Both the position numbers and the translations under genes were made by a program. Below, one piece after another: positions 28,542-48,029 of a stretch of 48,542 nt of DNA (positions are counted from its first letter, which is position 1; each line of letters opens with the position of its first letter). Below the pieces are notes generated by a model. The model was not told where the DNA came from, searched no databases, and worked only from the letters and a program-made list of their open reading frames with translations. The DNA is from Corynebacterium sp. (GTDB lineage: Bacteria; Actinomycetota; Actinomycetes; Mycobacteriales; Mycobacteriaceae), in NCBI RefSeq assembly GCF_030538285.1, contig NZ_JAUNUG010000017.1, positions 8,054-56,595 of the forward strand, in the 5' to 3' direction.

Positions 28542-29129
28542 ATGACTAACCCCTGGCACACCCCGCCCACGAACCCGCCAGCGCCCCGCGGTAACCGGGT
28601 GGTTCCGGTGCTGATTGCAGTGGTGACGCTCCTCGCGGTGGTGGCGGCGGGAACGATCGCCTGGCTGATCATGAGCGGCCCCGCGCAGAACTCCACCCCT
28701 TCCAGTGAGCCCGTGGTGGTGCTGCGGGAAACTACCGCGGTTACAGAGGCCGCCGAACCGACAGCCACTACCGCCACGACCACCAGTACGGTGACCACTG
28801 CGGCGGCGCCGGAGGAGGCGGCGTCGATAAGCAATTATGCCGGGATGCAGGCCACCACCCCGGCTTGCAACGGCGAGGTAGTGCTCATCATCGAGTCGGT
28901 ACTCGATGACCCGGAACGGCTGCGTGAGGTGCTCGCCGCGAACCCCGGATCGACGTTCTACCTGCCGGGTGCGTGCCCGTCACTGCGTGCGCGTATCGAC
29001 GGCCAGGACATCTACCCCGTCGTGCGTGAGTACGGTTCCGACGTCGCAGGTGTCTGTGCGGCGGCTGCTGGCGGGGGCGGGAACGCGCGCATCCTTAACC
29101 AGGACACGTCCTTCCCGTCGCCGTGCTGA
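28542..29129 (+). CDS. Unknown single-pass membrane protein, Thr-rich stalk
   Basis: A 195-aa protein: short cytosolic MTNPWHTPPTNPPAP, a membrane helix at about 21-45 (VVPVLIAVVTLLAVVAAGTIAWLI), a Thr/Ala-rich stalk (about 50-95, TATTATTTSTVTTAA) and an outer domain of ~95 aa with cysteines at CNGEVV, GACPS, GVC and the last residue. The stalk resembles mannosylated regions of actinobacterial surface proteins. A similar C-terminal domain with C-N-G-E and P-x-x-C-x-S pattern occurs behind some actinobacterial kinase genes, in my memory. Its last 150 nt overlap antisense with the DUF418 gene. Confidence 0.78.
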   Translation: MTNPWHTPPTNPPAPRGNRVVPVLIAVVTLLAVVAAGTIAWLIMSGPAQNSTPSSEPVVVLRETTAVTEAAEPTATTATTTSTVTTAAAPEEAASISNYAGMQATTPACNGEVVLIIESVLDDPERLREVLAANPGSTFYLPGACPSLRARIDGQDIYPVVREYGSDVAGVCAAAAGGGGNARILNQDTSFPSPC

Positions 29130-30296
29130 GAAATCGGCCAGCTTGTCCACAGTGTCGTGCCACACCAATTCCACCGGCCCCCGGCGGAAGAAGTGCAGCC
29201 ACACTGCGGACAGGGTGATCAGGAAACCGGCGATACCCAGGTAGATCGCCAACGTGGCCACCAGGGACCAGGGACCCTGGATCTTCGCGCTCACACCAAA
29301 GCCCCAGTCGTAGAAGATGATGGAGGCGATGAGGTTCTGCAGGATGTAGTTCGTCAGCGCCATCCGGCCCACCAGCGACAGACCGTGGCCCATCAGGCCG
29401 ACGCGCTCCCGGTGCACGTAGAAGGCGGCGACGGCGGCGAGCAGGCCGAACGCCACGATCGTCGACGTGCCGTAACGGGTAATGAAACCCCCGGAATCGG
29501 ACAACCGCAGAGCCCAGTCCACCGGGAAACCGACACCGAAGCCAACACCCATGACGATGCGGCGCAAACGACGACCCTCGGGGAGGAACAGCCCGGCGCG
29601 GTACAGGTGCGCGCCGACGAGAAACAGGCCCAGGCCCATGACGAACATGACCGGGATCTCCCCGCGCCCGCCGATGAAATCCTGCACGCGGGAGACGAGC
29701 ATGCCCCAGTAGGACTCGGTACCTGCGAAGGTGGGGGCGGCATCGAGACGGTTGGCGTCGACCGGCAACTCCGCCATCTCGACCGGCCAGAGCCTGTCCA
29801 GGATCGACGGCACCAAACTCATCGAGGCCAGAACCACCAGATGCGCGCCGAGCCCGATAAACATCCAGATCTTCTGCACCTTCGGGCTCTTCGCCATCAC
29901 CGCTGCGACAACCAGGGCTGTCAGGCCGTAACCCATCAGCACGTCGAACTCGAAGATGAAGATGTAGTTGAGCAGGCCGTCGAGGATGAGGATGCCCGCG
30001 CGCCACGGGTAGCGGCCCGGCCAGGACTCACCACGGCGCAACGCAGACTGACGCTGGATCTCCAGGCCAATGCCGAACATGATCGTCAGCAGTCCAATGA
30101 ATTTGCCGTCCGTGAACAGCAGCAGGCCGGTCTCCGCGATGCGGTTGAACACGGCGAGCGCGCCTTCTGCTTGCCCGGCGTCCGGGTCGAAGGCGGACTC
30201 CGAGAAGATCCAGATGTTGGTGAGCAGCGTGCCCAGGATCGCGATACCGCGGAGCACGTCAAGGGCGATGATACGCCTGCGAGGGGAAGTGGTCAT
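28980..30296 (-). CDS. DUF418-type integral membrane protein
   Basis: A 438-aa multi-pass protein. It starts RRRIIALDVLRGIAILGTLL, the hallmark N-terminus of DUF418 proteins (heparan-acyltransferase-like), followed by about ten hydrophobic helices. The C-terminal DUF418 signature reads GRMALTNYILQNLIASIIF and WLHFFRRGPVELVWH. The family would normally end soon after this; here about 55 further codons follow (SARRREGRVLVKDARVPAPA ...), and all of that extension lies antisense over the neighbouring 195-aa gene. I suspect loss of the original stop. Start ATG 30296. Role unknown; possibly envelope acylation or solute transport. Confidence 0.88.
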   Translation of the reverse strand: MTTSPRRRIIALDVLRGIAILGTLLTNIWIFSESAFDPDAGQAEGALAVFNRIAETGLLLFTDGKFIGLLTIMFGIGLEIQRQSALRRGESWPGRYPWRAGILILDGLLNYIFIFEFDVLMGYGLTALVVAAVMAKSPKVQKIWMFIGLGAHLVVLASMSLVPSILDRLWPVEMAELPVDANRLDAAPTFAGTESYWGMLVSRVQDFIGGRGEIPVMFVMGLGLFLVGAHLYRAGLFLPEGRRLRRIVMGVGFGVGFPVDWALRLSDSGGFITRYGTSTIVAFGLLAAVAAFYVHRERVGLMGHGLSLVGRMALTNYILQNLIASIIFYDWGFGVSAKIQGPWSLVATLAIYLGIAGFLITLSAVWLHFFRRGPVELVWHDTVDKLADFSARRREGRVLVKDARVPAPASSRRTDTCDVGTVLTHDGVDVLAVDTRTQ

Positions 30297-30569
30297 ACGC
30301 TCAACCTAAAAAGTATTTCTGGGGCAACGCTGGGGTGTTTCGCCTGAGAAAGGATGCGTGACCTGGCATTTTGCGTCTGCGGCTGGGATTTCTATGCGAT
30401 CGAGCGCGTGGGGTCCAGCGAACTCCCAGCTTGAGTACCCGCGAGCGGGGTCAGGTAACGCCCCTAAGGCCCCTGAGAAACCCCGCGGGGAGTAGTCCCC
30501 GAAAACTCGCCGGATGCTCTTCAACCACAGATACTTGAGGCAGAACAGCCGAGAAGAAGGAGCCAGAAC
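30297..30569 (+). other. Gene-free divergent promoter region with hairpins
   Basis: This 273-bp gap separates the leftward DUF418 gene from the rightward 375-aa gene. It contains CCCGC-GA-GCGGG near 30438, CCCCGCGGGG near 30480 and an adjacent GGGGAGTAGTCCCC, so a GC-rich hairpin cluster precedes the YDWG gene. AAGGAG 7 nt before ATG 30570 is the ribosome site. No coding frame is convincing. Confidence 0.5.
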
Positions 30570-31697
30570 ATGTCCGGATACGACTGGGGAGTCGCCCCAC
30601 AGCAACCCGCCGGATCGACACCGGTTGCGCCCGCCCCGCAGCAGAAGCGCGGCGTGCCCAAGGGCGCGCTCATCGCCGGTGGCGCGATCCTGGGAGTGGT
30701 GGCGCTGGGCTTCGGCGGGTTGATGGCCGCCTCCGCCATGCGTGGAGGCCCCGACAACCCCGCCGGTGTCAGCGATGAGCAGGCCGCCAGCTACTTCGAC
30801 GGGTATTCGTTATCCACCTGCGATTTCGGCGAGGAGTTCTACGAGAAGGCCAGCATCCATGAGGTGGAGGTCACCGAGAACGGGTGCGTCGGGTGGACCA
30901 TCCCGGAAGAGGGGCAGCCGAGTGTGCGGGTGTGGATGGAGGAAACGGAGAAAGAGCACAATTCCAACGACTCCACCGCTGTGGAAGGAGTTCCTGGCTG
31001 GAGCCAAGTCACTGGCTATAACGATCGACTCCCAGGCAACGTCACTTACGCAACTACTCACACCTCTGAACAATTCTGCCGGGCCTGGTCAAGTTCCTCA
31101 CGCATCGGGGACTGGGTGCTCGCTTCCCCGGGCGGGTGTGGCGTGCTCACCCCGCTTGCCGGCCAGCTGGAGAACCTCAACCGGCAGCAGACGTGGAACG
31201 ACGCGGACCGGGGTTTCTTCGATTTCGACGAGCATCCCGGCTACCTGGAAGTTAGCTCCCCAAACGCCAGCCTTTACACTACTGAGGACTGGACGGCAGG
31301 GACCACAGTGGATCCGGGTTCAGCCATCGCTTCGGAGCAGTCCGACTTCTCGGGGTCGACGGTTGCCGTTGGTTCTGTCCGGATCGAGGGTGACCAAATC
31401 TGTCTCGACGCCACCTTTACCCTGGGCGAAAACAGCAGCCGGTACTCGAATACCTTTCATCTTCCCAGTTTCACAGTGCAATTCGCCACCGCCGAAAGAG
31501 CGCCGTTGCAGGACAGTGTCCCAAGCCGATTGGAGCTCCAGGTTGGTGAGAGCTACACCTACCAGGCCTGCGGCCAGGCACCGGTGACGGTCAGGGGCGC
31601 AGATCTGCTGGTCGAGGATTCCCGTGGGTGGAGAAACGCAAACCAGCCCGCCTGGCGTTTCCCCGCTTCCCAGGTGGCGGGCGGGGAAACGGCCTGA
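30570..31697 (+). CDS. YDWG-family membrane protein, distant member
   Basis: A 375-aa protein beginning MSGYDWGVAPQQPAG, then KRGVPKG and a membrane helix (ALIAGGAILGVVALGFGGLM, about 33-55). It shares the N-terminal motif and the juxtamembrane segment YSLSTCDFGEEFYEKASI (compare CDLGEEFYRTAGI) with the tandem family upstream. Its outer domain is different, with QLENLNRQQTWNDADRGFFDF and four or more cysteines. It is transcribed from its own leader. The C-terminus runs to within 4 nt of the convergent lysS stop. Function unknown; conservation of the intracellular N-terminal motif suggests a shared cytosolic partner. Confidence 0.82.
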   Translation: MSGYDWGVAPQQPAGSTPVAPAPQQKRGVPKGALIAGGAILGVVALGFGGLMAASAMRGGPDNPAGVSDEQAASYFDGYSLSTCDFGEEFYEKASIHEVEVTENGCVGWTIPEEGQPSVRVWMEETEKEHNSNDSTAVEGVPGWSQVTGYNDRLPGNVTYATTHTSEQFCRAWSSSSRIGDWVLASPGGCGVLTPLAGQLENLNRQQTWNDADRGFFDFDEHPGYLEVSSPNASLYTTEDWTAGTTVDPGSAIASEQSDFSGSTVAVGSVRIEGDQICLDATFTLGENSSRYSNTFHLPSFTVQFATAERAPLQDSVPSRLELQVGESYTYQACGQAPVTVRGADLLVEDSRGWRNANQPAWRFPASQVAGGETA

Positions 31698-31701
31698 GGG
31701 T

Positions 31702-33270
31702 CTACTTCTGCTCGGGCTTGACGATCGGGAAGAGCACCGTCTCACGGATGCCCAGCCCGGTCAGGGCCATGAGGAGGCGGTCGACGCCCATGCCGATGCC
31801 GGAGGTCGGGGGCATGCCCTGCTCCATCGCGGCGAGGAAATCTTCGTCGAGGACCATGGCCTCATCGTCGCCGCCGGCGGCCAGGCGGGCCTGGTCCTCG
31901 AAGCGTTCGCGCTGGATGACGGGGTCGACGAGCTCGGAGTAGCCGGTGGCCAGCTCGAAGCCGCGGACGTAGAGGTCCCACTTCTCGGTCACGCCCGGCT
32001 TGGAGCGGTGCTGGCGGGTGAGCGGGGAGGTCTCGACGGGGAAGTCCTTGACGAAGATGGGGCCGTCCAGCTGGTCTTCACAGAGCAGCTCCCAGATCTC
32101 CTCGACGAGCTTGCCGTGGCCCCAGCCGCCCTTGGCGGGCACGTCGAGGCCGATGGCGTCGGCAATCGCCTTGAGTTCCTCGACGGTGGAGTCGATGGTG
32201 ACTTCCGGCTGGCCGGGGAACTTGCGGGCCAGGGCCTCGTTGAGGGAGGGGTACATCTCGATCTCGGTCCACTCGCCACCGAGGTCGTATTCGCGGCCGT
32301 CGGCAAGCGTGACCACGTGCGAGCCGAACACATCCATGGCCACGGCCTGGATGAGCTCGCGGATGGTACGCATGCCGGTGTTGTAGTCACCCCAGGCCTG
32401 GTAGGTCTCCAGCATGGCGAACTCCGGCGAGTGCGAGGAATCGACGCCCTCGTTGCGGAAGTTGCGGTTAACCTCGAAGACCTTGTCGATGCCGCCGACC
32501 ACGCAGCGCTTGAGGTAGAGCTCCGGTGCGATACGCAGGTAGAGGTCGATGTCGAGGGCGTTGGAACGGGTCTCGAAGGGGCGCGCGGCGGCGCCGCCGT
32601 GCAGGGTCTGCAGCATCGGGGTCTCGACCTCGAGGAAGCCCTCCCCTTCGAGGTGATTGCGCAGCGCGCGCATCACTTTGATGCGGGTCATGGCGTTGGT
32701 GCGTGCCTGCTCACGCATGATGAGGTCCGTGTAGCGGTGGCGCACGCGGGTGTCCTCGGACATGTCGGCGAACGCCACGGGCAGTGGGCGCAGCGCCTTG
32801 GCCGCCATCTGCCAGGAGGCGGCCATGATGGACAGCTCGCCGCGTCGAGAAGCAATAACCCGGCCCCGCACCGACACGAAATCACCGAGATCAACGTCGG
32901 CCTTCCAGGAATCCAGCGCCTCCTGCCCGACCTCAGCCAGCGACAACATCGCCTGCATGTGGGTGCCGTCGCCGTCCTGCAGCGTGGCAAAACACAGCTT
33001 GCCGGTATTGCGCATGAAGATGAGGCGACCGGCGACGGCCACCTCAACATCGGTTTCCTCGCCCGGGGCGAGGTAGGTCACGCCTTCCCGCTTATCGACG
33101 TCCCCCTCCTCCCCCACAACCTCGAACTTCGCACGCAGCTCACGCAGCGAAATGGTGCGGTCGACGGCGACGGGGTAGGGCTCGACGCCGGCGTCGATAA
33201 GCTTCTGTCGCTTCTCACGACGGATGCGCAACTGTTCGGGGAGGTCCTGGGGATTCTTCTGCTCGCTCAC
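31702..33270 (-). CDS. lysS: Lysyl-tRNA synthetase, class II
   Basis: Charges tRNA-Lys. The 522-aa product has the N-terminal OB-fold anticodon domain ([18 protein letters not shown], about 120-140) and the class II core: [21 protein letters not shown], motif 2 [20 protein letters not shown] and motif 3 [14 protein letters not shown] chose GTG 33270 (protein begins with [12 protein letters not shown]), with GGAAG just upstream; a frame to 33345 has no support. It reads leftward and shares a divergent promoter region with the SPFH gene. Confidence 0.98.
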
Positions 33271-33321
33271 GGCTTCCAAGGGTAGTCGATGGGCAGGGTG
33301 CGGGCTGAATCGTCCAACGCC

Positions 33322-33360
33322 TTGTAATCTGATATCAGATTCCACTATTCTGATATCAGA
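33322..33360 (+). promoter_or_regulatory. Twin palindromic operators over the SPFH promoter
   Basis: A perfect 16-bp palindrome AATCTGATATCAGATT (33326-33341) and a second TCTGATATCAGA (33349-33360) have centres exactly 21 bp apart, two helical turns. They overlap a plausible promoter, TTGTAA (33322) and TATTCT (33346) with an 18-bp spacer. The gene two places downstream encodes a ribbon-helix-helix DNA-binding protein, the natural candidate to bind here cooperatively and repress its own operon. Binding is inferred. Confidence 0.75.
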
Positions 33361-33388
33361 TTAACTCACACCCCTTTAAGGAGCCATC

Positions 33389-34351
33389 ATGAGCACTCCG
33401 CACGTACCCGAAGCCGAGGTCGCCGACCGCCCCGTCGGACACGAGGGAGGCAAAGTCGGGATCACCGAACGACCCGCCTGGGCCGGCGGCACCGCACTCG
33501 CCGCCCTCGTCCTCGTCGGCGCCCTGGCACTCCTGGTCGGCGGCACCGCACTGGCCATCTGGGGTGGCGTCCGCGCCGACGCCGGCGACACGGGAGTACC
33601 ACTCATCATCCTCGGAATTCTGGCCATCCTCGCCGCGGTCATCCTCCTGCCGATGATCCGCATCATCTCCCCCGGGCACACACACGTCGTCCAGTTCTTC
33701 GGCCGCTACCTGGGCACCAACCGCCATACCGGCCTGTCCCTCGTGCCGCCGCTGGCCACCTCGAAGAAGGTGAGCGTGCGCGTACGCAACTTCGAAACCA
33801 ACCAGATCAAGGTCAACGACTTAGGTGGCAATCCGATCATGATCGGCGCCATCATCGTCTGGCAGGTCGCCGACACCGCCAAAGCCACCTTCTCCGTCGA
33901 GGACGTCGAGGAGTTCATCCACTCCCAGTCCGAATCCGCCCTGCGCCACGTGGCCGGCAGCCACCCCTACGACGGTGGCACCGCCCAGCTGCCGTCCCTG
34001 TCTGGATCCACTGACCTGGTGTCCCGCGAACTCGCCGAAGAGGTCGCCGCCCGCGTCCGCATCGCCGGCCTGGAGATCCTCGAGGCCCGCATCTCCGCCC
34101 TGTCCTACGCCCCCGAGATCGCCCAGGCGATGCTGCAGCGCCAGCAGGCCGGCGCCATTGTCGACGCCCGCGAGACCATCGTCGACGGTGCCGTCTCCAT
34201 GGTCGAGTCCGCCCTCGATGAACTGGAGAAGAAGCAGATCGTCGACCTTGATCCCGAACGTCGCGCCGCGATGGTGTCCAACCTGCTCGTCGTCCTGTGC
34301 TCCGACACCAACGCCCAGCCGATGATCAACACGGGTAGCCTCTACACCTAA
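33389..34351 (+). CDS. SPFH/band-7 domain membrane protein
   Basis: A 320-aa protein anchored by two N-terminal helices (about 34-60 and 68-90; LAALVLVGALALLVGGTALA, then IILGILAILAAVILL). The SPFH domain follows: ISPGHTHVVQFFGRYLGT, RVRNFETNQIKVNDLGGNPI, AIIVWQVADTAKATFSVEDV, then a coiled-coil ending AGAIVDARETIVDGAVSMVE. Family members oligomerise into membrane microdomain rings. AAGGAG lies 5 nt before ATG 33389. The next gene, an RHH protein, begins on the base after the stop codon; this SPFH-RHH pairing recurs in actinobacteria as I recall. Confidence 0.93.
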   Translation: MSTPHVPEAEVADRPVGHEGGKVGITERPAWAGGTALAALVLVGALALLVGGTALAIWGGVRADAGDTGVPLIILGILAILAAVILLPMIRIISPGHTHVVQFFGRYLGTNRHTGLSLVPPLATSKKVSVRVRNFETNQIKVNDLGGNPIMIGAIIVWQVADTAKATFSVEDVEEFIHSQSESALRHVAGSHPYDGGTAQLPSLSGSTDLVSRELAEEVAARVRIAGLEILEARISALSYAPEIAQAMLQRQQAGAIVDARETIVDGAVSMVESALDELEKKQIVDLDPERRAAMVSNLLVVLCSDTNAQPMINTGSLYT

Positions 34352-34546: not shown

Positions 34547-34556
34547 CCTTCACCCC

Positions 34557-35054: not shown

Positions 35055-35058
35055 GCGG

Positions 35059-35144: not shown

Positions 35145-35165
35145 GGCGGGGGTTAGCTGCGGGGG

Positions 35166-36750: not shown

Positions 36751-37926
36751 TTAGCCGAGCAGCCAGTCGTTGGGCGAGAACAGCTCGAAATGGACGGACT
36801 TCGGGGCCTTGTCCTGCGGGAGGGCCTGCAGGTCAGAGCGGACGGCCTGCAGGAAGGCGTTGCCGCCGCAGAGGTAGACGTCGGAGCCGGCGAGGTCGTG
36901 GGCGGCGACGTCGATAAGCTGCCCTTCTGAACGGTAACTATGGGCGACGGTAACCTCCGGCAGCCGCTCGAGCAGCGCGGTGGTCTGGCCGAGCTGGGCG
37001 TGGGTGGCCGCGGAGTCGTCGGCGTGCAGGTAGGTGGTGCGACGCTCGGAGCCGGTGGCCGCCAGGTGGGAGAGCATGCCGACCATCGGGGTGGAGCCGA
37101 TGCCGGAGGAGATGAGGACGACGGGGGCGTCGTCGTCGATAAGCACGAGGTCGCCGGCCGCCAGCGTGGCCTGGATGGTGTCGCCGACGGCGACGTTGTC
37201 GCGGAGGTGGGTGGACACCTCGCCTTCCGTTTCTACGGCGATGGTGTAGCGGCCCGGCTCCTGGCCGATGATGGAGTACTGGCGGAGCTGGCGGGCGCCG
37301 TCGGCAAGCACGACGCCGATGGAGGTGTACTGGCCCGGGCGGGCCTGCGTGAGGTCTCCTTCGAGGGTATAGGTGGTGACAGTGTCGCTTAATTCCTGCT
37401 TATCGACGACCGCGACTTCCCTGAACACATCCCCATCCTCGACGCCGTCGGAAGCATAGAGCTTCTTCTCGTAGGCAATAAGGACATCGGCCATGATCCA
37501 GTAGACCTCGGACCAGGCGGCGGCCACCTCTTCGGTGACCACGTCCGCGCCGAGGACCTCGGCGATGGCGGAGAAGAGGTTCTCGTAGACGATCTGGTAC
37601 TGATCCTCGGTGATGCCGAGGGAGACGTGCTTGTGGCCGATGCGGGCGAGCAGGTCAACAGGGTCGGGGGCGGTGGGGTCGACGAGCATGGTGGCAAAGG
37701 TGGCGACTGAGGCCGCGAGGGCTTTCTGCTGCTCACCGGACTTCTGGTTGCCGCGATTGAAGGTGTTGGCCAGCAGTTCGGGGTGGTTGCCGAACATGGT
37801 GCGGTAAAAGGTCTGCGCGATGGTGGCGATGTTCGCGCCGACGGCCGGCAGGGTGGCCTTGACGATCTCCTCGTGCTCCGGGGTGAGCTGGCGGTCGCGG
37901 GCGGTGGGAAGTGCAGTGGTGTACAA
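36751..37926 (-). CDS. hmp: Flavohemoglobin, NO dioxygenase
   Basis: A 391-aa cytosolic enzyme that oxidises NO to nitrate with NAD(P)H and O2. Globin domain 1-150 with the proximal-His region RIGHKHVSLGIT; FAD-binding domain with RQYSIIG; NAD domain with SSGIGSTPMVGML and YLCGGNAFLQAV. The start is TTG 37926, 5 nt after AAGGAG; no ATG/GTG fits better. It is divergent from phoX, and the gap contains a large palindrome that may bind its regulator. Confidence 0.95.
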   Translation of the reverse strand: MYTTALPTARDRQLTPEHEEIVKATLPAVGANIATIAQTFYRTMFGNHPELLANTFNRGNQKSGEQQKALAASVATFATMLVDPTAPDPVDLLARIGHKHVSLGITEDQYQIVYENLFSAIAEVLGADVVTEEVAAAWSEVYWIMADVLIAYEKKLYASDGVEDGDVFREVAVVDKQELSDTVTTYTLEGDLTQARPGQYTSIGVVLADGARQLRQYSIIGQEPGRYTIAVETEGEVSTHLRDNVAVGDTIQATLAAGDLVLIDDDAPVVLISSGIGSTPMVGMLSHLAATGSERRTTYLHADDSAATHAQLGQTTALLERLPEVTVAHSYRSEGQLIDVAAHDLAGSDVYLCGGNAFLQAVRSDLQALPQDKAPKSVHFELFSPNDWLLG

Positions 37927-38131: not shown

Positions 38132-40213
38132 ATGTCCCTACAGGGTCGCAACCTCTTCCGCAACAAATTCACCTCCTCCCGCAGCTCTTTGACCTGCACC
38201 TACAAGTGCGGCAACGCCTGCTTCGGCGAGTGCGAGAACAAGTCCGACAACCCCTACTTCGGCGACCTCATGTCCCGCCGTTCCGCGCTGAAGGCCGGCG
38301 GACTCACCGTCCTCACCGTCGGTGGCGGCGCCGCTTTGGCCGCCTGCTCCCCAGCCAACGAGTCCGCCTCCACCGCCTCGTCCGCCGCCACCACCGGCGT
38401 CGGCGGCCCGGAAGAGCACACCTCCGCCAAGGGCCTGCAATTCGACATGGTCGCCCCGAACGAGGACGACACCGTCACCGTCCCCCACGGCTACGAGACC
38501 TCCGTGCTCATCGCCTGGGGCGACCCGGTCATCGAGGGTGCCCCGGAATTCGACATCAACAACCAGACCCTGGAAGCCGCGGAGCAGCAGTTCGGATTCA
38601 ACAACGACTTCGCCGGTCTGCTCCCCCACCCGGACGATGACAACCGAATGGTCTACGTCTGCTCCCACGAGTACACCACCGAGCCGCAGATGTTCCCAAA
38701 CTACGACGCCGACAACCCCACCGAGGAGCAGGTGCGCATCGGTATCGCCAACCATGGCCACACCATCCTCGAGGTGTCCAAGGTCGGCGACACCGGCGAG
38801 CTCAAGCGCGAGTTCGGCCCGCTCAACCGCCGTATCACCGGCACCACCGAATTCAAACTCGTCGGCCCGGGCGCCGGTTCCGATTACGTCAAGACCGACG
38901 CCGATCCCACCGGCACCACCGTCCTGGGCACCTTCAACAACTGCTCCGGCGGTCTGACCCCGTGGGGCACCATGCTCTCCGGCGAGGAGAACTTCGACAT
39001 CTACTTCGCCAACGCCGACGGCATCACCGATGAGCGCACCCGCACCTCCGTCGACCGCTTCGGCGCCGCCGAGGGCGAGTCCGACCGCAAGTGGGAGCGT
39101 TTCGACGAGCGCTTCGACCTGGCCAAGCACCCCAACGAGTTCAACCGCTTCGGCTACCTCGTGGAGATCGACCCCTTCGACCCCACCTCCACCCCGGTCA
39201 AGCACATGTCCAACGGCCGCTTCAAGCACGAGGCCGGCAACGTCCACATCACTGACGACGGCACCGTCGCCTGCTACTCCGGAGACGATGCCCGCTTCGA
39301 GTACCTCTACAAGTTCGTCTCCACCAAGAAGATGATCGAGGGCGATCAGGCCCACAACATGACCATCCTCGACGAGGGCACCTTGTATGTCGCCTCCATG
39401 GAGGGCAACTCCCCGCAGGACGAGATCGACGGTTCCGGCGAGCTCCCCTCCGACGGCGCCTTCGACGGTGAGGGCACCTGGCACAAGCTCATGACCGTCG
39501 ACGCCGACGGCAACGCCGAGTCCCACGTCGACGGCTTCACCGGCGAGGAAGTGGCGATCTTCACCCGCGAGGCCGCCGACGCCGTGGGTGCCACCAAGAT
39601 GGACCGACCGGAGGACGTCGAGGTCTCCCCGACCACCTCCAAGGTCTACATGGCCCTGACCAACAACAAGTACCGTGGCGCTGCCGAGAAGTCCCAGGAA
39701 GACGTCATGGAGTACGCCCCGGTCAAGGAGAACAAGAACGGCCTGGTCATGGAGATCGAGGACGATCACGCCGGCGAGAAGTTCACGTGGAACCTGGTGC
39801 TGGTCTGCGGCGACCCGGACGAGGCGTACACCTACTTCGGCGGCTTCGATAAGGAGAAGGTCTCCCCCATCTCCTGCCCGGACAACCTGGCCTTCGATGA
39901 GCACGGCAACCTGTGGATCTCCACCGACGGCAATGCCCTCGGTTCCAACGACGGCCTGTATGCCATGACCGTCGAGGGTGAGAACCGCGGCGAACTCAAG
40001 TGCTTCCTCACTGTTCCCTACGCGGCTGAGACGTGCGGCCCGATCGTCGAGAAGCAGCGTGTCCTGGTCAACGTCCAGCACCCGGGCGAGACCGATGAGG
40101 CGACTGTCGAGGAGCCGGCGTCCCACTGGCCGGGCGGCGGCGACTCCAAGCCGCGTCCGGCAGTGGCACAGGTGTGGAAGGCGGATGGCGGCGATATCGG
40201 TATCGACGTCTAA
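38132..40213 (+). CDS. phoX: PhoX-type alkaline phosphatase (DUF839), Tat-exported lipoprotein
   Basis: A 693-aa phosphatase of the PhoX family, which use Ca/Fe cofactors rather than Zn. A ~45-residue N-terminal region with a Cys cluster (TCTYKCGNACFGEC) precedes the twin-arginine signal SRRSALKAGGLTVLTVGGG and a lipobox-like LAAC. The catalytic part is the PhoX beta-propeller: GFNNDFAGLLPHPDD, NRMVYVCSHEYTTEPQMF, NCSGGLTPWGTMLSGEENF and PDNLAFDEHGNLWISTDGN. Start ATG 38132. With the PhoA-type enzyme 2 kb away it gives two unrelated phosphatases for phosphate scavenging. Confidence 0.95.
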   Translation: MSLQGRNLFRNKFTSSRSSLTCTYKCGNACFGECENKSDNPYFGDLMSRRSALKAGGLTVLTVGGGAALAACSPANESASTASSAATTGVGGPEEHTSAKGLQFDMVAPNEDDTVTVPHGYETSVLIAWGDPVIEGAPEFDINNQTLEAAEQQFGFNNDFAGLLPHPDDDNRMVYVCSHEYTTEPQMFPNYDADNPTEEQVRIGIANHGHTILEVSKVGDTGELKREFGPLNRRITGTTEFKLVGPGAGSDYVKTDADPTGTTVLGTFNNCSGGLTPWGTMLSGEENFDIYFANADGITDERTRTSVDRFGAAEGESDRKWERFDERFDLAKHPNEFNRFGYLVEIDPFDPTSTPVKHMSNGRFKHEAGNVHITDDGTVACYSGDDARFEYLYKFVSTKKMIEGDQAHNMTILDEGTLYVASMEGNSPQDEIDGSGELPSDGAFDGEGTWHKLMTVDADGNAESHVDGFTGEEVAIFTREAADAVGATKMDRPEDVEVSPTTSKVYMALTNNKYRGAAEKSQEDVMEYAPVKENKNGLVMEIEDDHAGEKFTWNLVLVCGDPDEAYTYFGGFDKEKVSPISCPDNLAFDEHGNLWISTDGNALGSNDGLYAMTVEGENRGELKCFLTVPYAAETCGPIVEKQRVLVNVQHPGETDEATVEEPASHWPGGGDSKPRPAVAQVWKADGGDIGIDV

Positions 40214-40346: not shown

Positions 40347-40362
40347 ATCAACCCTGGCCAAA

Positions 40363-42169: not shown

Positions 42170-42173
42170 CACC

Positions 42174-42437
42174 ATGTCATTCCGGGAGAAGTTCCGCGCA
42201 TTCACGGACGGGCTCACCGAGTTTTACGCGGGCCCGTACCGCGCGACCTTCGTCAAGGCACGCCAGCAGGAAGATGACCTGTTCATGATGCTGGTCATGT
42301 CCGAGGCCCTCGGCGTGCCCAACCCGGCCAGCTACTACACGCTGGAAATGCTGCCCATCATCTACGAGGACTTCCACGCCTGGCACTGCCGCATGGGCAT
42401 GGAGCATTCACCCCTGGAGAACATTCAGTGCTGCTAG
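42174..42437 (+). CDS. CC-star small protein, CstA partner
   Basis: An 87-aa soluble protein ending in Cys-Cys directly before the stop codon (IQCC). Sequence: REKFRAFTDGLTEFYAGPYR, a helix QEDDLFMMLVMSEALGV, YYTLEMLPIIYEDFHAWHCR. It corresponds to what I know as the 'cory-CC-star' family. E. coli pairs cstA with ybdD, whose product likewise is tiny and ends in C-C, so this is probably the functional counterpart of that CstA partner. It starts at ATG 42174; the terminal TGC TGC TAG overlaps the start of the ATPase gene by 10 nt. Confidence 0.85.
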   Translation: MSFREKFRAFTDGLTEFYAGPYRATFVKARQQEDDLFMMLVMSEALGVPNPASYYTLEMLPIIYEDFHAWHCRMGMEHSPLENIQCC

Positions 42438-43387
42438 AGCTCATCGGATCCACCCGCATCGTGTTCTTCGGGGGCAAGGGTGGCGTGGGCAAGACCACCG
42501 TCGCGTCCTCCACGGCGACCGCCCTGGCCGCCGCCGGCCGGCGCGTGCTGCTGGTGTCCACCGACCCGGCCCACAATCTGGGGCATCTGTGGGAGCAGCG
42601 CATCGGCGACCATGTCACCCCGGTCCGCGAGAATCTTGATGTCCTCGAGCTCGACCCGGCGGAGACCACCCGTGCGCATCTCAAGGCCGTCGGCCACACA
42701 ATGCGGCAGATGATGCCGGAGCACCTGCACGGTGAGGTGAGCAAGCATCTGGAGCTCTCCGCCCAGTCACCGGGCACGCACGAGGCGGCGGTGCTCGAGC
42801 GGATCGCGGAGATCGTCGCCGGTTCTCAGGACTACGACCACGTCGTCTTCGACACCGCCCCCTCCGGCCACACCTCCCGTCTCATGGAGCTGCCCGAGCT
42901 CATGGCTGCCTGGACCGATGGTCTGCTCGATCGGCGTGACAAGTCGGAGCATCTCTCCGCCGTGGTGCGTGGGCTCTCCCCCACGGGCCGCGACCGTGTC
43001 GCTGCCGCGGAGGATCCCGTTGACCGCCGTAACCAGCAGTTGCGTTCCATCCTGCTCAAGCGGCGCCAGCGTTTCACCCAGCTTCGCGACGTCCTCCGTG
43101 ACCCCGCCCAGTGCGTCTTCTTCATCGTGCTCACCGCCGAGCGCCTCCCCGTTCTGGAGACCGGCGAATTCCACGCCGAACTCCGAGCGGCGGGTGTGCG
43201 CGTCGGCGGCCTGGTGGTCAACCGCCGCTCCCCGGCGGATCAGGGCGAATTCCTGGCAGAACGCCGCTCGCTGGAGGATGCAGCCCTGGAGAAGCTGCTT
43301 ATCGACGTCCCCGTCGTCCAGCTCCCCCTCCTCCCCCGCGATGTCAGTGGTTTGGACGAGGTGGAGGATTTCGCGCAGCTGCTCTAG
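42428..43387 (+). CDS. ArsA/GET3-family ATPase
   Basis: A 319-aa deviant-Walker ATPase. FFGGKGGVGKTTVASSTATA (about 14-33) is the ArsA/GET3 P-loop, STDPAHNLGHLW the switch I region and VVFDTAPSGHTSRLMELPE the switch II. It has one ATPase unit, like GET3, and no As-binding cysteine set is visible, so arsenite pumping is unlikely. The start is GTG 42428, overlapping the Cys-Cys-stop of the upstream gene. The close coupling suggests that it works on the CC-star protein or on CstA. Confidence 0.9.
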   Translation: MLLELIGSTRIVFFGGKGGVGKTTVASSTATALAAAGRRVLLVSTDPAHNLGHLWEQRIGDHVTPVRENLDVLELDPAETTRAHLKAVGHTMRQMMPEHLHGEVSKHLELSAQSPGTHEAAVLERIAEIVAGSQDYDHVVFDTAPSGHTSRLMELPELMAAWTDGLLDRRDKSEHLSAVVRGLSPTGRDRVAAAEDPVDRRNQQLRSILLKRRQRFTQLRDVLRDPAQCVFFIVLTAERLPVLETGEFHAELRAAGVRVGGLVVNRRSPADQGEFLAERRSLEDAALEKLLIDVPVVQLPLLPRDVSGLDEVEDFAQLL

Positions 43388-43402
43388 CGGCCCCGCCCGC
43401 GA

Positions 43403-43448
43403 GTTCGTGCATATCCCCTGTACACATGCATGGCAGATATACACGAAC
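43403..43448. repeat. Inverted repeat between converging genes
   Basis: GTTCGTGCATATC (43403-43415) and GATATACACGAAC (43436-43448) are complementary but for one base, with a 20-nt loop containing TGTACA and ATGCAT. It lies 16 bp after the ATPase stop and just before the end of the convergent GAF gene. There is no T-tract; it probably serves as a two-way end of transcription. Confidence 0.6.
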
Positions 43449-43458
43449 GCCGGGGGTG

Positions 43459-43974
43459 CTACAGCTCCGGGATCGAATGGGCGATGGCCCACTCGGGTCC
43501 GTGCTTGTCCCGGATGACCGCGAGCCCATTGCTCCACAGCAAACGGAGCAAGGCGCTCAGCTCTCCGACGAAAGCAGACTCCTGGAGCAGTTCATATGTT
43601 CTGGCGTCTACCCCTCGAGCCTTTTCGGACTCGATAACGACGATCCCCACGGCGTCCCCCTCGCGGTCCAGTCTGAGAGCGACCATACTCCGCGAATGCA
43701 TTTTGAGGTTCTTCGTCTCTTCGTCTCCGAAAGCCCATTTCTCGACGTTGTCTTGGTCCCATCGAGCGCGGATTTCGGGTAAGGACAGTTCAACGGCAAA
43801 CCCCTCCTTCCATGCCCGCGCAATTATTCCTTGACCATCCGGATAGCGGTGACGTCCCGCCATTTGAAGGGTCGGATTCGCCGACTTCCGGGAAATGGGG
43901 ACCAACTCGTGGTTTTGTCGATCCCGACAGTAGACCGTCAGGCGGATTCTTGTGACGCGTTCTTCTAACGTCAA
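43459..43974 (-). CDS. GAF-domain-like protein
   Basis: A 171-aa cytosolic protein. The central part reads as a GAF sensor fold: RIRLTVYCRDRQNHELVPIS, YPDGQGIIARAWKEG (the typical G-x-G-I-x-G/A-x-A-W), SMVALRLDREGDAVGIVVIES and ARTYELLQESA. No output domain is attached, so it would act through a partner. The start is TTG 43974, with GGGGAG 4 nt upstream and an in-frame stop a short way before it. It follows the 102-aa gene after 30 nt. The ligand is unknown. Confidence 0.7.
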   Translation of the reverse strand: MTLEERVTRIRLTVYCRDRQNHELVPISRKSANPTLQMAGRHRYPDGQGIIARAWKEGFAVELSLPEIRARWDQDNVEKWAFGDEETKNLKMHSRSMVALRLDREGDAVGIVVIESEKARGVDARTYELLQESAFVGELSALLRLLWSNGLAVIRDKHGPEWAIAHSIPEL

Positions 43975-44004
43975 GCTTCTCCCCTCTTCCCCCGATTGGC
44001 ATAC

Positions 44005-44313
44005 TCAGGCAGGTAGCAGCAGGTTGCTTCCCTGTTCAAAATGCTCACCGGAGGAAGCCATCCGGCGAATCATCTCATTCACAAATTCGTCGAGGGCATC
44101 CTGGGCTTCACCGAAACTCGCACCGGAGGCACGAAGGTGAATGACCAGTTCTCCTGAACCAGTCCCTTCGATGAGGCCTATCCATTCGACGTCAGTAGAT
44201 GACATCATCTCCAGGGTCTTCCTGAGTTCCACGGCCAGAGCCTCCCGGGCTTGCGGAGGCGTGACGGAGATGGACAATTCAGAACGTAGCTTCTTGAGGG
44301 CGTGCCGCGGCAT
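44005..44313 (-). CDS. Unknown 102-aa protein paired with GAF gene
   Basis: A small soluble protein starting at ATG 44313 with AAGGAG 8 nt upstream. The frame is open far beyond, but only as a shadow of panC. Sequence features: basic start RHALKKLRSELS, helix REALAVELRKTLEMM, strand EWIGLIEGTGSGELVIHL, helix EAQDALDEFVNEMIRRM. No family is recognised. It and the GAF gene form a two-gene leftward unit between the ATPase and the panC operon; small-partner/sensor logic is a guess. Confidence 0.7.
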   Translation of the reverse strand: MPRHALKKLRSELSISVTPPQAREALAVELRKTLEMMSSTDVEWIGLIEGTGSGELVIHLRASGASFGEAQDALDEFVNEMIRRMASSGEHFEQGSNLLLPA

Positions 44314-44432
44314 TCTTCGTTCTCCTTCCTGGACGTGTACTGATGAGATATTCGCCATCATAAGCCACCCGCACGACACATCGGCGCCCACCACGGGCGG
44401 GCGGGGAGGGCATTCGCGGCAAACTCTTCCGC

Positions 44433-44759
44433 TTATCGACGCCCCGCCCACCGCCACACCGCCACCGACACGGCGAGGCCCATATAGAGCAGTGCCAACA
44501 GATACGAGGCGATGACGGGGTGGAATACCGTGGTCTCCGGGATGCTCCGGGCCCACCACACCGAGGCCACGCCCACCGTCAATCCGGTTCCGGCCAGGAC
44601 TGCAGCGTCGAAGCCATTCAATCTCCGGCGCTGAAATGCCACGGACCACACCACTACCAGGGCGAACAGCACGCAGCCCGCCCCGAAGAGCCACCAGACA
44701 TCGCCCCACATCCCACCGAGCACCACAGTCAGCGCCACCAGCGTCCCCCAACGCATCAC
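44433..44759 (-). CDS. Small membrane protein after panC
   Basis: A 108-aa protein with three or four membrane helices (LVALTVVLGGMWGDVWWLFG, CVLFALVVVWSVAF, VIASYLLALLYMGLAVSVAV). It starts at GTG 44759, 2 nt after the panC stop, or at ATG 44756; GAGG precedes both. It is the last gene of the folate/pantothenate operon. Function unknown. Its stop codon is part of a GCTTATCGACG motif. Confidence 0.75.
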   Translation of the reverse strand: MMRWGTLVALTVVLGGMWGDVWWLFGAGCVLFALVVVWSVAFQRRRLNGFDAAVLAGTGLTVGVASVWWARSIPETTVFHPVIASYLLALLYMGLAVSVAVWRWAGRR

Positions 44760-44761
44760 GC

Positions 44762-45565
44762 TCAGCCCTCGATGTTGCGGAAGCCGATGCCGAGCGGCAG
44801 GCCGACGTTGTCGGTGAGGCGCACCCCGCCGACCAGCGCGGAGACCAGCAGTCGGGCATCGCCCTGCGCGGGGGCGTCGCCGAGGTCGAGGCCGCGGACC
44901 GCGAGGTAGTCGACGTCGACACCCGCCTCGTCCAGGACCGTCCGGGCCACCGACAGCACGGCCTCGGCGCCGTGTTCGGCGGAGTGGGCCCCGGCGGTGA
45001 GCGCTGCGGATATTGCCAGCGCTTGCTCGCGGGCCGATTCCTCCACGCGCGTGTTGCGCAGGGACAGGGCCAGCCCATCAGGCATGCGGACGGTGGGCAC
45101 ACCGTGCAGTTTCACCGGCAGGTGCAGGTCCGTGATGGCGGCCTGCAGCGCCCGCATCTGCTCGTAGTCCTTCTCCCCAACCACCACATCGGTGGGCCCG
45201 ACCGCGTTGATCAGGCTCAGCGCCAAGGTCAGCTCCCCGGCCACCTCAGCAACCGGCTCGAGGTCGTGATCCACGGGCTGGACCAGCGTGCGCAGGCCGC
45301 GGGGCCACAGTTCATCCTGGGTGTAGGTGCAGATGGCGTCGACGTGGGCGTCGATAAGCAATGAATGATCGGAGCCCGAAAAGGCGACAATGACCACCGC
45401 CCGGGGGATGCGCTGCGCTGCGCGGATGAGCGCGAGGTGGCCGGCGTGCGCGCCCGAACCGAGCGGCACGAGGACGACGGGGCGGCCCGTCTTACGCATG
45501 GCTCGGGCCAGCACACCGGCCTGCGCGAGCGAGAATTCCCGCGCCTGACCTGCTTCGAAGCTCAC
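44762..45565 (-). CDS. panC: Pantoate-beta-alanine ligase, diverged
   Basis: A 267-aa enzyme that joins pantoate and beta-alanine with ATP to give pantothenate. HIGH-type motif GAHAGHLALIRAAQ, VVVGEKDYEQMRAL and PTVRMPDGLALSLRN (usual DGLAMSSRN) are present, so the fold is clear but several usually fixed residues are changed. The RPGHF element is replaced by PVDHDLEP. The start is GTG 45565 with GGAGGAG 5 nt upstream, overlapping the DUF2520 gene by 4 nt. Activity is likely but should not be taken for granted. Confidence 0.88.
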   Translation of the reverse strand: MSFEAGQAREFSLAQAGVLARAMRKTGRPVVLVPLGSGAHAGHLALIRAAQRIPRAVVIVAFSGSDHSLLIDAHVDAICTYTQDELWPRGLRTLVQPVDHDLEPVAEVAGELTLALSLINAVGPTDVVVGEKDYEQMRALQAAITDLHLPVKLHGVPTVRMPDGLALSLRNTRVEESAREQALAISAALTAGAHSAEHGAEAVLSVARTVLDEAGVDVDYLAVRGLDLGDAPAQGDARLLVSALVGGVRLTDNVGLPLGIGFRNIEG

Positions 45566-46266
45566 AGTTTCTCCTCCTGGATGGCCCACAGTTCAATGTC
45601 CTGGTTGTGCTGGGTTTCCGCGACGCGGCGCAGCACCTGCCGGAAGGCGCGGGCCTGGCCGGGATTGTCGATGGACTCCCACTGGGCGCGCAGGGACGCG
45701 GCGTCGGGAAGCCGGGGCAGGCTGCCTCGGGAGGCGGCGATGTCATCGGCCTCCTGGATGTCGCCGACCACGTCGCTGAGCATCCGCACTGCGTCGCGCC
45801 CAAGCGATTTCACGGCCTCCACATAGGTGATGGCGGCGGCGAGACGGACCCGGTCCTCGTCGAGGCACGGCACACCACTCGCCCCGAGCTCGCCGAGCAG
45901 CAGCTCCGCGATCGTCTCACCAACCTCATCGACAGTGGTCACCGCCCAGCGGATGGGGCTGAGCTCACCGAGTGCGATGACGACCGCGCCGGTGACCTCC
46001 AGCGGGTCCATGATGAGCACCCCATGCTGCAGGGAGGTGTGGATGAAGATCTGCCCGCGCCGGGCACGCTCCGCCAGCCGCTCGATCGCAGATTCCAGCA
46101 GGGAGTCCCGCACCTCCAGCACCACCAGATCAAGATCCTCGAAGGCGGGCGGGGCCGGGTCGTAGTCCATGTAGGACACGTCGTGGCCGACCTTCGACAA
46201 CAGGTCGGGCAGGGAGGATGTGCGCGAGTCGCCGTACACGCCCACCCGCATCCGCGGGGCGCGCAC
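45562..46266 (-). CDS. Rossmann-like / DUF2520 protein
   Basis: A 234-aa protein with an N-terminal Rossmann strand-loop (RMRVGVYGDSRTSSLPDLLS), DLDLVVLEVRDSLLESAIERL, and the helical C-terminal domain of 6-phosphogluconate-dehydrogenase-like proteins (AAAITYVEAVKSLGRDAVRM). In actinobacteria this gene regularly precedes panC. The usual GxGxxG is reduced to G-V-Y-G-D-S, so cofactor binding is doubtful. It starts at GTG 46266, overlapping the previous stop by 1 nt. A role near pantoate formation is suggested by position only. Confidence 0.85.
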   Translation of the reverse strand: MRAPRMRVGVYGDSRTSSLPDLLSKVGHDVSYMDYDPAPPAFEDLDLVVLEVRDSLLESAIERLAERARRGQIFIHTSLQHGVLIMDPLEVTGAVVIALGELSPIRWAVTTVDEVGETIAELLLGELGASGVPCLDEDRVRLAAAITYVEAVKSLGRDAVRMLSDVVGDIQEADDIAASRGSLPRLPDAASLRAQWESIDNPGQARAFRQVLRRVAETQHNQDIELWAIQEEKL

Positions 46267-47078
46267 TAGGCGTCCTTGTTCGCGCGGGCGAGCAACTCGG
46301 CGACAGTCAGTCCGCTGGTGTTTTCGTCCCGGCGGCGACGTCCGCGGCTTTCCGGTTCCGGCTCGGTCTCCGGTTCCGGCTTCTCGACGACCGGCTCGGG
46401 CTCCGGCTCCACTTCCGGCTCGGGCTCAGCTTCCCGTTCCGGCTGCCAAGACACCGTCTGGAATGCCCCGGTGTTGAAGGGGCGTGGCTCGGTGGCCTGC
46501 TGCTTTTCCCGGATGAGGTCGGCCAGCGGGTTGGACTGCGGGCGGGAGGGCTGCTGGCCGAGGCGCCCGGCGACCGCATCCGCCGAGGGGGCGCCGAAGC
46601 TGGGCTCGGGCTCGGGTACGTCGGATTCCTCCGGCGCGAACGTCGACTCCAGTTCCTGGATGCGGTGGGCGTGGGCGCGCACGGCTGCGGGCTGGTACTC
46701 GAAGGAACGGCCGGCGAGGTTTTCCAGCTGGGCACGGATGCCCGCCAGTTCCCGCTGGATGTCCTCGAGGACGGCGGTGTCGCGGGAGGGCTCCGGCTTT
46801 TCCAGCGCGCGGACTTCCTCGCGGACCTCTTCGCGGGCTTCGGCGCGGGCGAGTTCGGTGCTCAGGGCGAGTTCCTGGCGGGCGGCCTCGGCATCGCGGC
46901 GGTAGCGGAAGACGAGGAAGAAGCCGATGATCGCCGCCCACAGGGCCGCCAGGAGGGCGATTTTCAGGGCTCCGTCGCTGTCGGTGAACAGCATGACGAT
47001 GCTCGCAATGAAGGCCAGAACGATCAGGATGACCAGCATCACCTGGCTGCGGTCGACGCCACCTTGCTCCTCAGTCAT
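46266..47078 (-). CDS. DUF6779-like membrane protein with acidic tail
   Basis: A 270-aa protein: two N-terminal membrane helices (VMLVILIVLAFIASIVMLF, then IALLAALWAAIIGFFLVF), a charged coiled coil (AEAREEVREEVRALEKPEP, about 78-115) and a long acidic Pro/Glu repeat region (EPEPEVEPEPEPVVEKPEPE) before GLTVAELLARANKDA. I start it at ATG 47078; upstream frame is a shadow. Membership in DUF6779 is my recollection of the gene at this position in corynebacteria. A scaffold role at the membrane is plausible but unproven. Confidence 0.75.
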   Translation of the reverse strand: MTEEQGGVDRSQVMLVILIVLAFIASIVMLFTDSDGALKIALLAALWAAIIGFFLVFRYRRDAEAARQELALSTELARAEAREEVREEVRALEKPEPSRDTAVLEDIQRELAGIRAQLENLAGRSFEYQPAAVRAHAHRIQELESTFAPEESDVPEPEPSFGAPSADAVAGRLGQQPSRPQSNPLADLIREKQQATEPRPFNTGAFQTVSWQPEREAEPEPEVEPEPEPVVEKPEPETEPEPESRGRRRRDENTSGLTVAELLARANKDA

Positions 47079-47088
47079 GTGTCCTACC

Positions 47089-47556
47089 TTAACCCGCCGC
47101 TTCGCCCTCGGCGGGCGGCGGTGTCTCGCAGTGTCGTTCGAGGTACAGGCCCGCGGCGGCGAGCGCCACCCCACCCACCGTGGAGGCGAGGACGCCGGGG
47201 AGGTCATCGGCGGCGGCGATGAGGTCGCCGGCACGCGGGATGATGTAGGTGGCCATGCCGAGGTAGGCGCCGCCGATGACGGCGCCGGTCCACGCGGAGG
47301 CTTTGCCGATGACCAGGAACTGGGCGGCGGTCACCGGGCTGAGCTGGGAGCGGTCCTGGCCGATGCCGCCGTCACCTTTGCGGTCGCGTACGCGCCAGGC
47401 CAGGGCTATGCACACGATGGTCATCACCCACAGGGTGACGGAGACGGTCACCGGGATCGAGGTCATCGAGCCGTAGAGACGCCAGGTGAGGATCGCGGCG
47501 ACGGCGGCGATGAAGCCTCCGACGGCGATGAGCGCGGCGATCGACGTCCGTTTCAT
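47089..47556 (-). CDS. DUF3180 membrane protein
   Basis: A 155-aa protein with four membrane helices (SIAALIAVGGFIAAVAAIL, VTVSVTLWVMTIVCIALAW, a Gly-rich LVIGKASAWTGAVIGGAYLG, and VLASTVGGVALAAAGLYLE). The G-x-A-x-A-x-x-G-A motif and its location right after folK identify DUF3180. The start ATG 47556 overlaps the folK stop (ATGA). Function unknown. Confidence 0.88.
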   Translation of the reverse strand: MKRTSIAALIAVGGFIAAVAAILTWRLYGSMTSIPVTVSVTLWVMTIVCIALAWRVRDRKGDGGIGQDRSQLSPVTAAQFLVIGKASAWTGAVIGGAYLGMATYIIPRAGDLIAAADDLPGVLASTVGGVALAAAGLYLERHCETPPPAEGEAAG

Positions 47557-48029
47557 AAGCACCCCACTTCCACGATGGCGGCGACGTCGGCGGGATCAAG
47601 CGCAGCAAGAAGCTTATCGACGCCGCCCCCACCCAGCATCGCCTCCGGGTCCGCCGCCAGCCAGGGCACGAGGACGAAGGCGCGTTCGTGGGCGTGCGGG
47701 TGCGGGAGGGTGAGCACCGGGTCATCGGATTCGATGCCGTCGATGGTGACGATGTCCACGTCGAGGGTGCGCGGCCCCCAACGGCGCACGCGCACGCGTT
47801 CGGCCTCCTCTTCCAGGCGCTGGCCGCGGCGCAGCAGTTCCAGCGGGGTGTCCTCGACCTCGACAATGAGCACGGCGTTGAGGAACTCGTCCTGGTCGGT
47901 CACCCCCCACGGCGGGGTGGAGTACACGGGGCTTAAGGCGATGATCTCGCCAGCGAACTCATCGCGGACGCGGCGTAGCAGCGCCCAGCGGTCGTCCATG
48001 TTCGACCCGATCGACAGCACGGCGCGCAT
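47553..48029 (-). CDS. folK: HPPK, 6-hydroxymethyl-dihydropterin pyrophosphokinase
   Basis: A 158-aa folate enzyme that transfers pyrophosphate from ATP to the pterin. Motifs: SIGSNMDDRWALL, SPVYSTPPWGVTDQDEFLNAV, VRRWGPRTLDVDIVTIDG and LPHPHAHERAFVLVPW (the D-x-D and R residues bind Mg-ATP). It starts at ATG 48029, overlapping the folB stop by 1 nt, and its stop overlaps DUF3180. Confidence 0.97.
   Translation of the reverse strand: MRAVLSIGSNMDDRWALLRRVRDEFAGEIIALSPVYSTPPWGVTDQDEFLNAVLIVEVEDTPLELLRRGQRLEEEAERVRVRRWGPRTLDVDIVTIDGIESDDPVLTLPHPHAHERAFVLVPWLAADPEAMLGGGGVDKLLAALDPADVAAIVEVGCL

Follow-up and report, generated by a model that had tools for sequence, protein, structure and literature searches.

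A highly iterated word of Corynebacterium that resembles a DNA uptake sequence and occurs in two dialects

Why uptake sequences exist is an old question, and the best-known examples come from two families of Gram-negative bacteria. In the available part of PMC3630211, the DNA uptake sequence (DUS) of Neisseriaceae (GCCGTCTGAA) was described as forming dialects around an invariant core, with common intragenic copies and with inverted pairs at terminators. The uptake signal sequence (USS; AAGTGCGGT, Apl type) of Pasteurellaceae has two subclade spellings, for which an uptake preference was demonstrated (PMC1626085, in part), and perfect copies are described as being in excess for both USS and DUS (PMC1626085, in part). 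The actinobacterium Micrococcus luteus has comEA and comEC and requires a Flp/Tad pilus for natural transformation (PMC6370729, in part); no uptake sequence is mentioned for it there, and the term "uptake sequence" occurred 0 times in the available part of PMC6667448. HIP1 (GCGATCGC) of cyanobacteria is a highly iterated, genome-wide word (PMC4390886, in part). Among the literature matches listed, as far as their titles and the beginnings of their abstracts go, no uptake sequence was reported in Corynebacterium or other actinobacteria; for three Corynebacterium, the accessible portion of PMC5217627 gave only CRISPR-related motif pairs, and that of PMC11651106 did not mention competence or transformation. 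Here we describe the 11-base word GCTTATCGACG, which is repeated in a stretch of 48,542 nucleotides of Corynebacterium sp. (hereafter the window), which belongs to contig 33 in an assembly of 2.95 Mb and 94 contigs. Among the matches listed, the literal 11-mer appeared once each in two papers on other subjects.

We consider it likely, with a probability of roughly 0.7, that GCTTATCGACG works like a DNA uptake sequence of Corynebacterium, which is a statement of likeness and not of proven membership. An earlier note on the window had considered it possible that the word acts at the DNA level, as a signal for uptake, for methylation, for segregation or for recombination. Our analysis supported a DNA-level role, and of these four options the evidence favored uptake, because the word showed no strand skew in a complete genome (G005), was not palindromic, switched dialect site by site and had an asymmetric flank, and because competence genes occurred throughout the genus. 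We infer an uptake role, a Tad/Flp pilus together with ComEA and ComEC as the machinery, a specific receptor, and an uptake drive behind the copies. Of the traits that PMC1626085 and PMC3630211 (each in part) give for USS and DUS, the word showed over-representation, a core that is asymmetric and present on both strands, a 3' flank with its own asymmetry (a trait of USS), dialects, and accompanying competence genes.

Like DUS, the Corynebacterium word is short and asymmetric, is present in very many copies, often lies within genes, and forms lineage dialects with a common core. Unlike DUS, to which its sequence is unrelated, it belongs to another phylum, is followed by a compositional tail that DUS lacks, rarely forms inverted pairs, and is sparser; a receptor like ComP of DUS was not shown for it, and no search aimed at one was made. 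The word shares with USS a core plus asymmetric 3' motifs, the lack of an orientation bias, and the existence of two spellings (PMC1626085, in part), but it is unrelated to USS in sequence, its 3' flank is C-rich instead of AT-rich, and its function in uptake is presumptive. Like M. luteus, the organism belongs to the actinobacteria and carries genes for ComEA, ComEC and a Tad/Flp pilus, a putative competence machinery. In contrast to HIP1, which is a palindrome linked to methyltransferases, the Corynebacterium word is asymmetric and has a tail and dialects.

In the window's own genome, GCTTATCGACG occurred 782 times (393 forward and 389 reverse) and the reversed word only once, and the family GCTTNNCGACG occurred 1964 times, compared with 64 for its reversed control. 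The count of exact copies was about 400 times the expectation from shuffles of the window scaled to the genome, so that a genome-wide frequency near expectation, which the earlier note had named as a possible refutation, was not observed. The word is genome-wide and not regional, and it is asymmetric without a palindrome. Mismatches and flanks were analyzed in 367 kb of this genome (19 stretches and the window), in which 106 exact copies and 133 one-mismatch copies were found, 75 of the latter differing at position 5. In the flanks of the 106 exact copies, G was rare at position 0 (6%) and position 12 (8%), and C predominated at position 13 (83%). The claim that the second base after the word is C and the base between is never G held for all ten copies of the window, but was only a preference in the wider sample. 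The 3' tail was C-rich and G-poor up to approximately position 34 (about 25 bases), with C enriched at positions 13, 16, 22, and 25 in both dialects, and it was also present at antisense and non-coding copies; otherwise there was no homology between the flanks.

Within the window, GCTTATCGACG had 10 matches, whereas 100 dinucleotide shuffles gave a mean of 0.03 and a maximum of 1; matches with no more than one mismatch numbered 26, compared with 0.78 expected. Every coordinate and strand of the ten exact copies was reproduced. Genes were predicted with a simple codon-score finder written for this analysis, and 8 of the 10 exact copies, all of which were confined to 28.8-47.7 kb, lay within predicted genes:
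28822..28832, minus strand, exact copy outside the genes called by the simple gene finder
33090..33100, plus strand, exact copy, antisense to the gene 31705-33270 for a class II tRNA synthetase (D, K, N type)
33192..33202, minus strand, exact copy, sense in the class II tRNA synthetase gene 31705-33270
36909..36919, minus strand, exact copy, sense in the globin-domain gene 36754-37926
37134..37144, minus strand, exact copy, sense in the globin-domain gene 36754-37926
37398..37408, plus strand, exact copy, antisense in the globin-domain gene 36754-37926
43297..43307, plus strand, exact copy, sense in the ArsA-type ATPase gene 42428-43387
44431..44441, plus strand, exact copy outside the genes called by the simple gene finder
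45349..45359, minus strand, exact copy, sense in the pantoate ligase gene 44765-45565
47612..47622, plus strand, exact copy, antisense in the predicted gene 47556-48029

The frame assignment of the 106 copies confirmed that they fall in different reading frames: 52 encoded Leu-Ile-Asp, the two remaining sense frames had 5 and 4, two antisense frames had 20 and 9, and 16 were outside genes. The single frame without copies would introduce a TAA stop into the gene. Codon usage was analyzed in the window together with 21 stretches, 407 kb in all, which contained 369 predicted genes and 125 copies, of which 102 were genic; only about 4 of these remained after synonymous codons had been shuffled within genes (20 shuffles). 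Peptides of the form Leu-Ile-Asp-(Ala/Val/Gly/Asp/Glu) were spelled with the word in 58 of 78 cases, compared with 1.2 expected, and CTT encoded 65 of the 102 leucines of Leu-Ile-Asp, compared with 5.5% of all leucines. As had been argued from the window, protein sequence did not explain the copies, and the shuffling led us to reject an origin in codon or codon-pair bias, the other possible refutation named in the earlier note.

Across a sample of 101 Corynebacterium genomes (individual genomes are denoted by G and a number), GCTTATCGACG was found in 97, with 0 to 782 copies per genome and the maximum in the window's own genome. The form GCTTGTCGACG was also common, with up to 352 copies per genome, and position 5 is therefore tolerant. 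The related genomes G063, G064, and G083 had almost exclusively the A form (285, 246, and 292 copies of GCTTATCGACG; 1, 2, and 5 of GCTTGTCGACG, respectively), so their spelling is stricter than that of the other Corynebacterium. Genomes sampled from 30 further genera of the same family had 0 to 7 copies of the 11-mer each. Among 394 genomes of the class, only the two Corynebacterium stood out in GCTTNTCGAYG (1561 copies against 23 for the control, and 653 against 17), and the highest count outside Corynebacterium was 193 against a control of 58.

By thresholds on family counts, 75 of the 101 genomes were classified as C type, 5 as T type, and 21 as neither. The C-type genomes had 280 to 1964 copies of GCTTNNCGACG (median 1091), at least 3.7 times the reversed control. 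In 22 kb, C. lubricantis had 12 family words and C. flavescens 7, with no T-type word in either, and both were counted as C type. In genomes nearly without C-type words, GCTTGCCGATG and GCTTGTCGATG were enriched, and a sister dialect, GCTTNNCGATG, had 1021, 736, and 680 copies in G006, G094, and G053 (controls 7, 19, and 7, respectively) and, more weakly, 213 and 159 copies in G073 and G084 (controls 25 and 10). The other 96 genomes had 12 to 159 copies of GCTTNNCGATG, a word for which the reversed control is lenient. Three genomes are clearly T type and G073 moderately so; the T class of G084 rests on its lack of C-type words, because its count of 159 equals that of the C-type genome G011. 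Eight C-type genomes carried 118 to 159 T-type words, which are perhaps relics or signs of a double specificity. The two dialects are the CGACG (C) and CGATG (T) types of a common core.

To place the dialects on a phylogeny, we used a midpoint-rooted tree of seven proteins from the comEC neighborhood in 98 genomes, without G078, G092, and G081 (a fragment). Motif-bearing genomes occurred in both of the deepest branches, and parsimony assigned the C state to the root. The dialect state required 9 parsimony changes, whereas 200 label shuffles required 23 on average and never fewer than 19. Fifteen of the 21 motif-less genomes formed one clade with full support (G024, G028, G040, G095, G003, G030, G017, G072, G010, G066, G033, G015, G054, G079, and G076). 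G030 and G054, each searched over 120 kb, showed no comparable replacement word (best z approximately 8, against 48 in the window's own genome); for the other 13 members, words were sought in the pooled comEC neighborhoods only. The enriched words of G039 were rejected as resembling the composition of its 76% GC genome.

Dialect switching was analyzed in the phoX region by comparing five T-type records (C. macginleyi, three isolates, and one metagenome-assembled genome) with twelve C-type records, of which 5 were C type by word count and the rest were taken as such, partly from their names; 8 of 25 Corynebacterium records were excluded. Of 684 site comparisons, 331 were unaligned, the motif was lost in 229, and it was kept outside position 10 in 124. 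Position 10 was C in 111 of these 124 T-to-C-type comparisons and T in 13, whereas at control CGATG words elsewhere T was kept in 946 and replaced by C in 104 of 1071. These results showed that the same sites change dialect between related species; the number of independent switches is small, because all 124 comparisons come from six orthologous positions, of which five were predominantly C and the sixth predominantly T, and none is from L081. Conservation at orthologous sites, proposed as a check in the earlier note, was also observed: GCTTRTCGACG was kept at 57 of 120 orthologous positions in 36 close pairs, which are not independent of each other, compared with 33 expected from TCGA-containing control 11-mers. 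We regard it as fairly probable that most of the genus shares an ancestral uptake sequence, the first in actinobacteria, read by a Tad/Flp competence machine; that the dialect was switched at orthologous sites between the C-type C. tuberculostearicum and C. kefirresidentii and the T-type C. macginleyi and its relatives, which would thereby be sexually isolated; and that one large clade lost the system.

Genes for the presumed machinery were widespread. ComEC was matched in all 101 genomes, a TadA-type ATPase was above the cut-off in 97 (not in G021, G024, G075, and G092), and T2SSF was matched at E 0.001 in 96, with two TadB/C-like stretches in the window's own genome. In this genome, NCBIfam models for a CpaE-like Ssd, TadA, an adjoining DEAH helicase, the N-terminal portion of ComEC, and the helix-hairpin-helix portion of ComEA scored above cut-off, and those for TadE, full-length ComEA, and full-length ComEC scored below it; no NCBIfam model matched the putative TadB, TadC, and Flp. 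The helicase (L065:12593-14974), which adjoins the Tad pilus locus, is of the "helicase/secretion neighborhood" type (TIGR03817). A simple pilin filter found no pilins in G053 and G031. In the 15-genome motif-less clade, the TadA match was partial in 10 genomes, almost complete but with a low score in 4, and absent from 1; the ComEC open frames were all >650 amino acids, longer than most others. These peculiarities may simply follow phylogeny. Upstream of comEA there were clusters of TTATCCACA, which we take to be DnaA-box-like words: 102 of the 124 such words in 1.95 Mb lay within -400 to +150 bases of where the open stretch of comEA begins. Of the 98 genomes, 69 had such words near comEA (C type, 55 of 73; T type, 4 of 5; motif-less, 10 of 20), often paired, and in the window's own genome the place is L046:8075 (C64); this clustering suggests that the competence operon is under DnaA control.

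Over the 101 genomes the strands were equal (7644 forward and 7709 reverse), and the 94 sites of the complete genome G005 had no half-chromosome skew (permutation p 0.63). This was the strand-skew check along the chromosome suggested by the earlier note, and on the evidence of G005 it led us to reject a replication-strand signal. Segregation signals such as KOPS, matS, and parS are skewed, regional or palindromic, and approximately 1000 family copies are more than usual for chromosome-organizing sites. A binding site of a chromosome-organizing or nucleoid protein, whose specificity changed in some lineages, would agree with the genome-wide occurrence on both strands, with the dialect change, and with conservation at orthologous sites above controls. 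However, the word has neither skew nor palindrome, its copy number is high (median 1091 in 75 genomes), and its absence from the 15-genome clade would be odd for a basic chromosome function, so that we consider such a site unlikely.

A Chi-like recombination word for a repair nuclease such as AdnAB, although it too would be short, asymmetric, and very frequent, is improbable: Chi-type words are oriented with replication, unlike the unskewed sites of G005, and loss or respelling in related species would be unexpected. Much the same low probability applies to self-marking through a restriction system or DNA methyltransferase, an idea that has been put forward for HIP1 and that would account for a highly iterated word with lineage variation; methyltransferase sites are usually shorter than 11 bases with a tail of approximately 25 bases of biased composition, and the word is not palindromic. 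A signal at the RNA or codon level, such as codon-pair bias, a rut-like C-rich element or a stability element, could draw on the C-rich, G-poor tail and on the predominance of sense copies (68 of 102 genic copies, with a mild excess of 22 of 68 in the first fifth of the gene), but 34 of the 102 were antisense, 23 of the 125 copies lay outside or straddled predicted genes (non-coding DNA was 11.9% of the sampled bases), the tail was alike at these copies, and synonymous shuffling removed the enrichment; we consider it very improbable. Dispersal of a tiny mobile element, suggested by the many identical copies, was rejected in view of flanks without homology beyond the compositional tail, of copies read in frame within genes, and of variants at orthologous sites, and its probability is very low.

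Several observations weigh against an uptake sequence. The excess of perfect copies described for USS and DUS was not clearly found, since one-mismatch copies exceeded perfect ones (133 and 106) and were fewer only when position 5 was left out (58), and exact copies, at one per 3.8 kb, were sparser than USS and DUS (about one per kb). Inverted pairs were rare, with 1 among 125 exact copies in the window's own genome; one pair, flanked by the end of lepA and a gene convergent to it, formed a perfect terminator-like hairpin followed by Ts, with comparable ones in G063 and G064, which counts in favor of an uptake sequence, and degenerate pairs at a distance of up to 40 bases comprised 7 converging, 4 diverging, and 1 tandem (853 sites, 99 loci). 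Spacing was more regular than random in three contigs of the genome (62 sites, coefficient of variation 0.71, p 0.005), but this was not seen in G005 (p 0.48) or in the degenerate family (p 0.10). The preference of USS and DUS for non-coding DNA was matched in part at most, the 23 of 125 copies outside or across the borders of predicted genes standing against a non-coding share of 11.9%. The period-3 C signal of the tail was partly that of codon third positions in the commonest frame. Contrary to a simple preference for core genes, genic density was lowest in the most codon-typical genes (1.85 compared with 3.76 per 10 kb); it was three times higher in the top GC quartile than in the bottom one, and these trends are no clean test of foreign-DNA depletion, because the codon-typical quartile was lowest and the tail itself is C-rich. 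As for the machinery, the C-type genomes G071 and G075 had no T2SSF match and G021, G075, and G092 no TadA match over the cut-off (G075 and G092 are incomplete assemblies, and TadA of G071 is at a contig end), and Flp and TadE were nearly alike in G005 (C type) and G006 (T type). The comEC and TadA genes did not separate the groups, because most motif-less genomes keep both, and loss of Tad or ComEC was rejected as the cause of motif loss. Finally, natural transformation of Corynebacterium was not reported among the literature matches listed.

The wider family GCTTNNCGAYG had 26 sites in the window including the ten exact copies, and 8 of the 26 were located before 28.8 kb; each single degenerate member may be due to chance. 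The other 16 members were as follows:
4086..4096, minus strand, degenerate member GCTTTTCGACG
8594..8604, minus strand, degenerate member GCTTCTCGACG
10655..10665, plus strand, degenerate member GCTTCTCGACG
12009..12019, minus strand, degenerate member GCTTCTCGACG
15410..15420, minus strand, degenerate member GCTTTTCGACG
24901..24911, plus strand, degenerate member GCTTGACGACG
26117..26127, plus strand, degenerate member GCTTCTCGACG
27620..27630, plus strand, degenerate member GCTTCTCGACG
32298..32308, minus strand, degenerate member GCTTGCCGACG
32843..32853, minus strand, degenerate member GCTTCTCGACG
37299..37309, minus strand, degenerate member GCTTGCCGACG
40045..40055, minus strand, degenerate member GCTTCTCGACG
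43081..43091, plus strand, degenerate member GCTTCGCGACG
45702..45712, minus strand, degenerate member GCTTCCCGACG
46379..46389, plus strand, degenerate member GCTTCTCGACG
48048..48058, plus strand, degenerate member GCTTCTCGACG

The absence of exact copies before 28.8 kb, already pointed out in the earlier note, was borne out, with 0 copies compared with 7.6 expected at the genome rate (Poisson 0.0005, noticed post hoc). This part without exact copies contains a gene for an RHS-repeat protein and a large, presumably EccC-like gene with an FtsK/SpoIIIE domain, both in 2656-13113, and three genes without a Pfam match, and it may be acquired DNA or an island; this reading is weakened by a Clp ATPase gene in the same part and by the post hoc nature of the gap. 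The nearest named relatives of the PhoX protein of the window were from Corynebacterium, with C. pollutisoli the best (81% identity).

If the word is an uptake sequence, we propose that the tag consists of the core GCTT-NN-CGAYG, with GCTTATCGACG as its best form here, followed by the C-rich, G-poor 3' tail. A DNA receptor of the competence machinery would prefer this tag, so that binding and import would be more frequent for DNA of the same dialect. The more frequent import and recombination of tagged DNA would in turn multiply the copies at all places in the genome where coding permits, through mutation and biased recombination and not through transposition. A shift in receptor preference would then let the genomic copies drift to a new spelling, giving rise to dialects.

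Such a system would be an independent, actinobacterial case of uptake sequences, probably with a different uptake machine, and its two dialects, their switch, and their loss would make the coevolution of receptor and word testable by comparison. It would also provide a simple genetic tool for harmless species of the genus, and it would mean that natural transformation, following the dialects, is a route of DNA exchange among corynebacteria, including human commensals.

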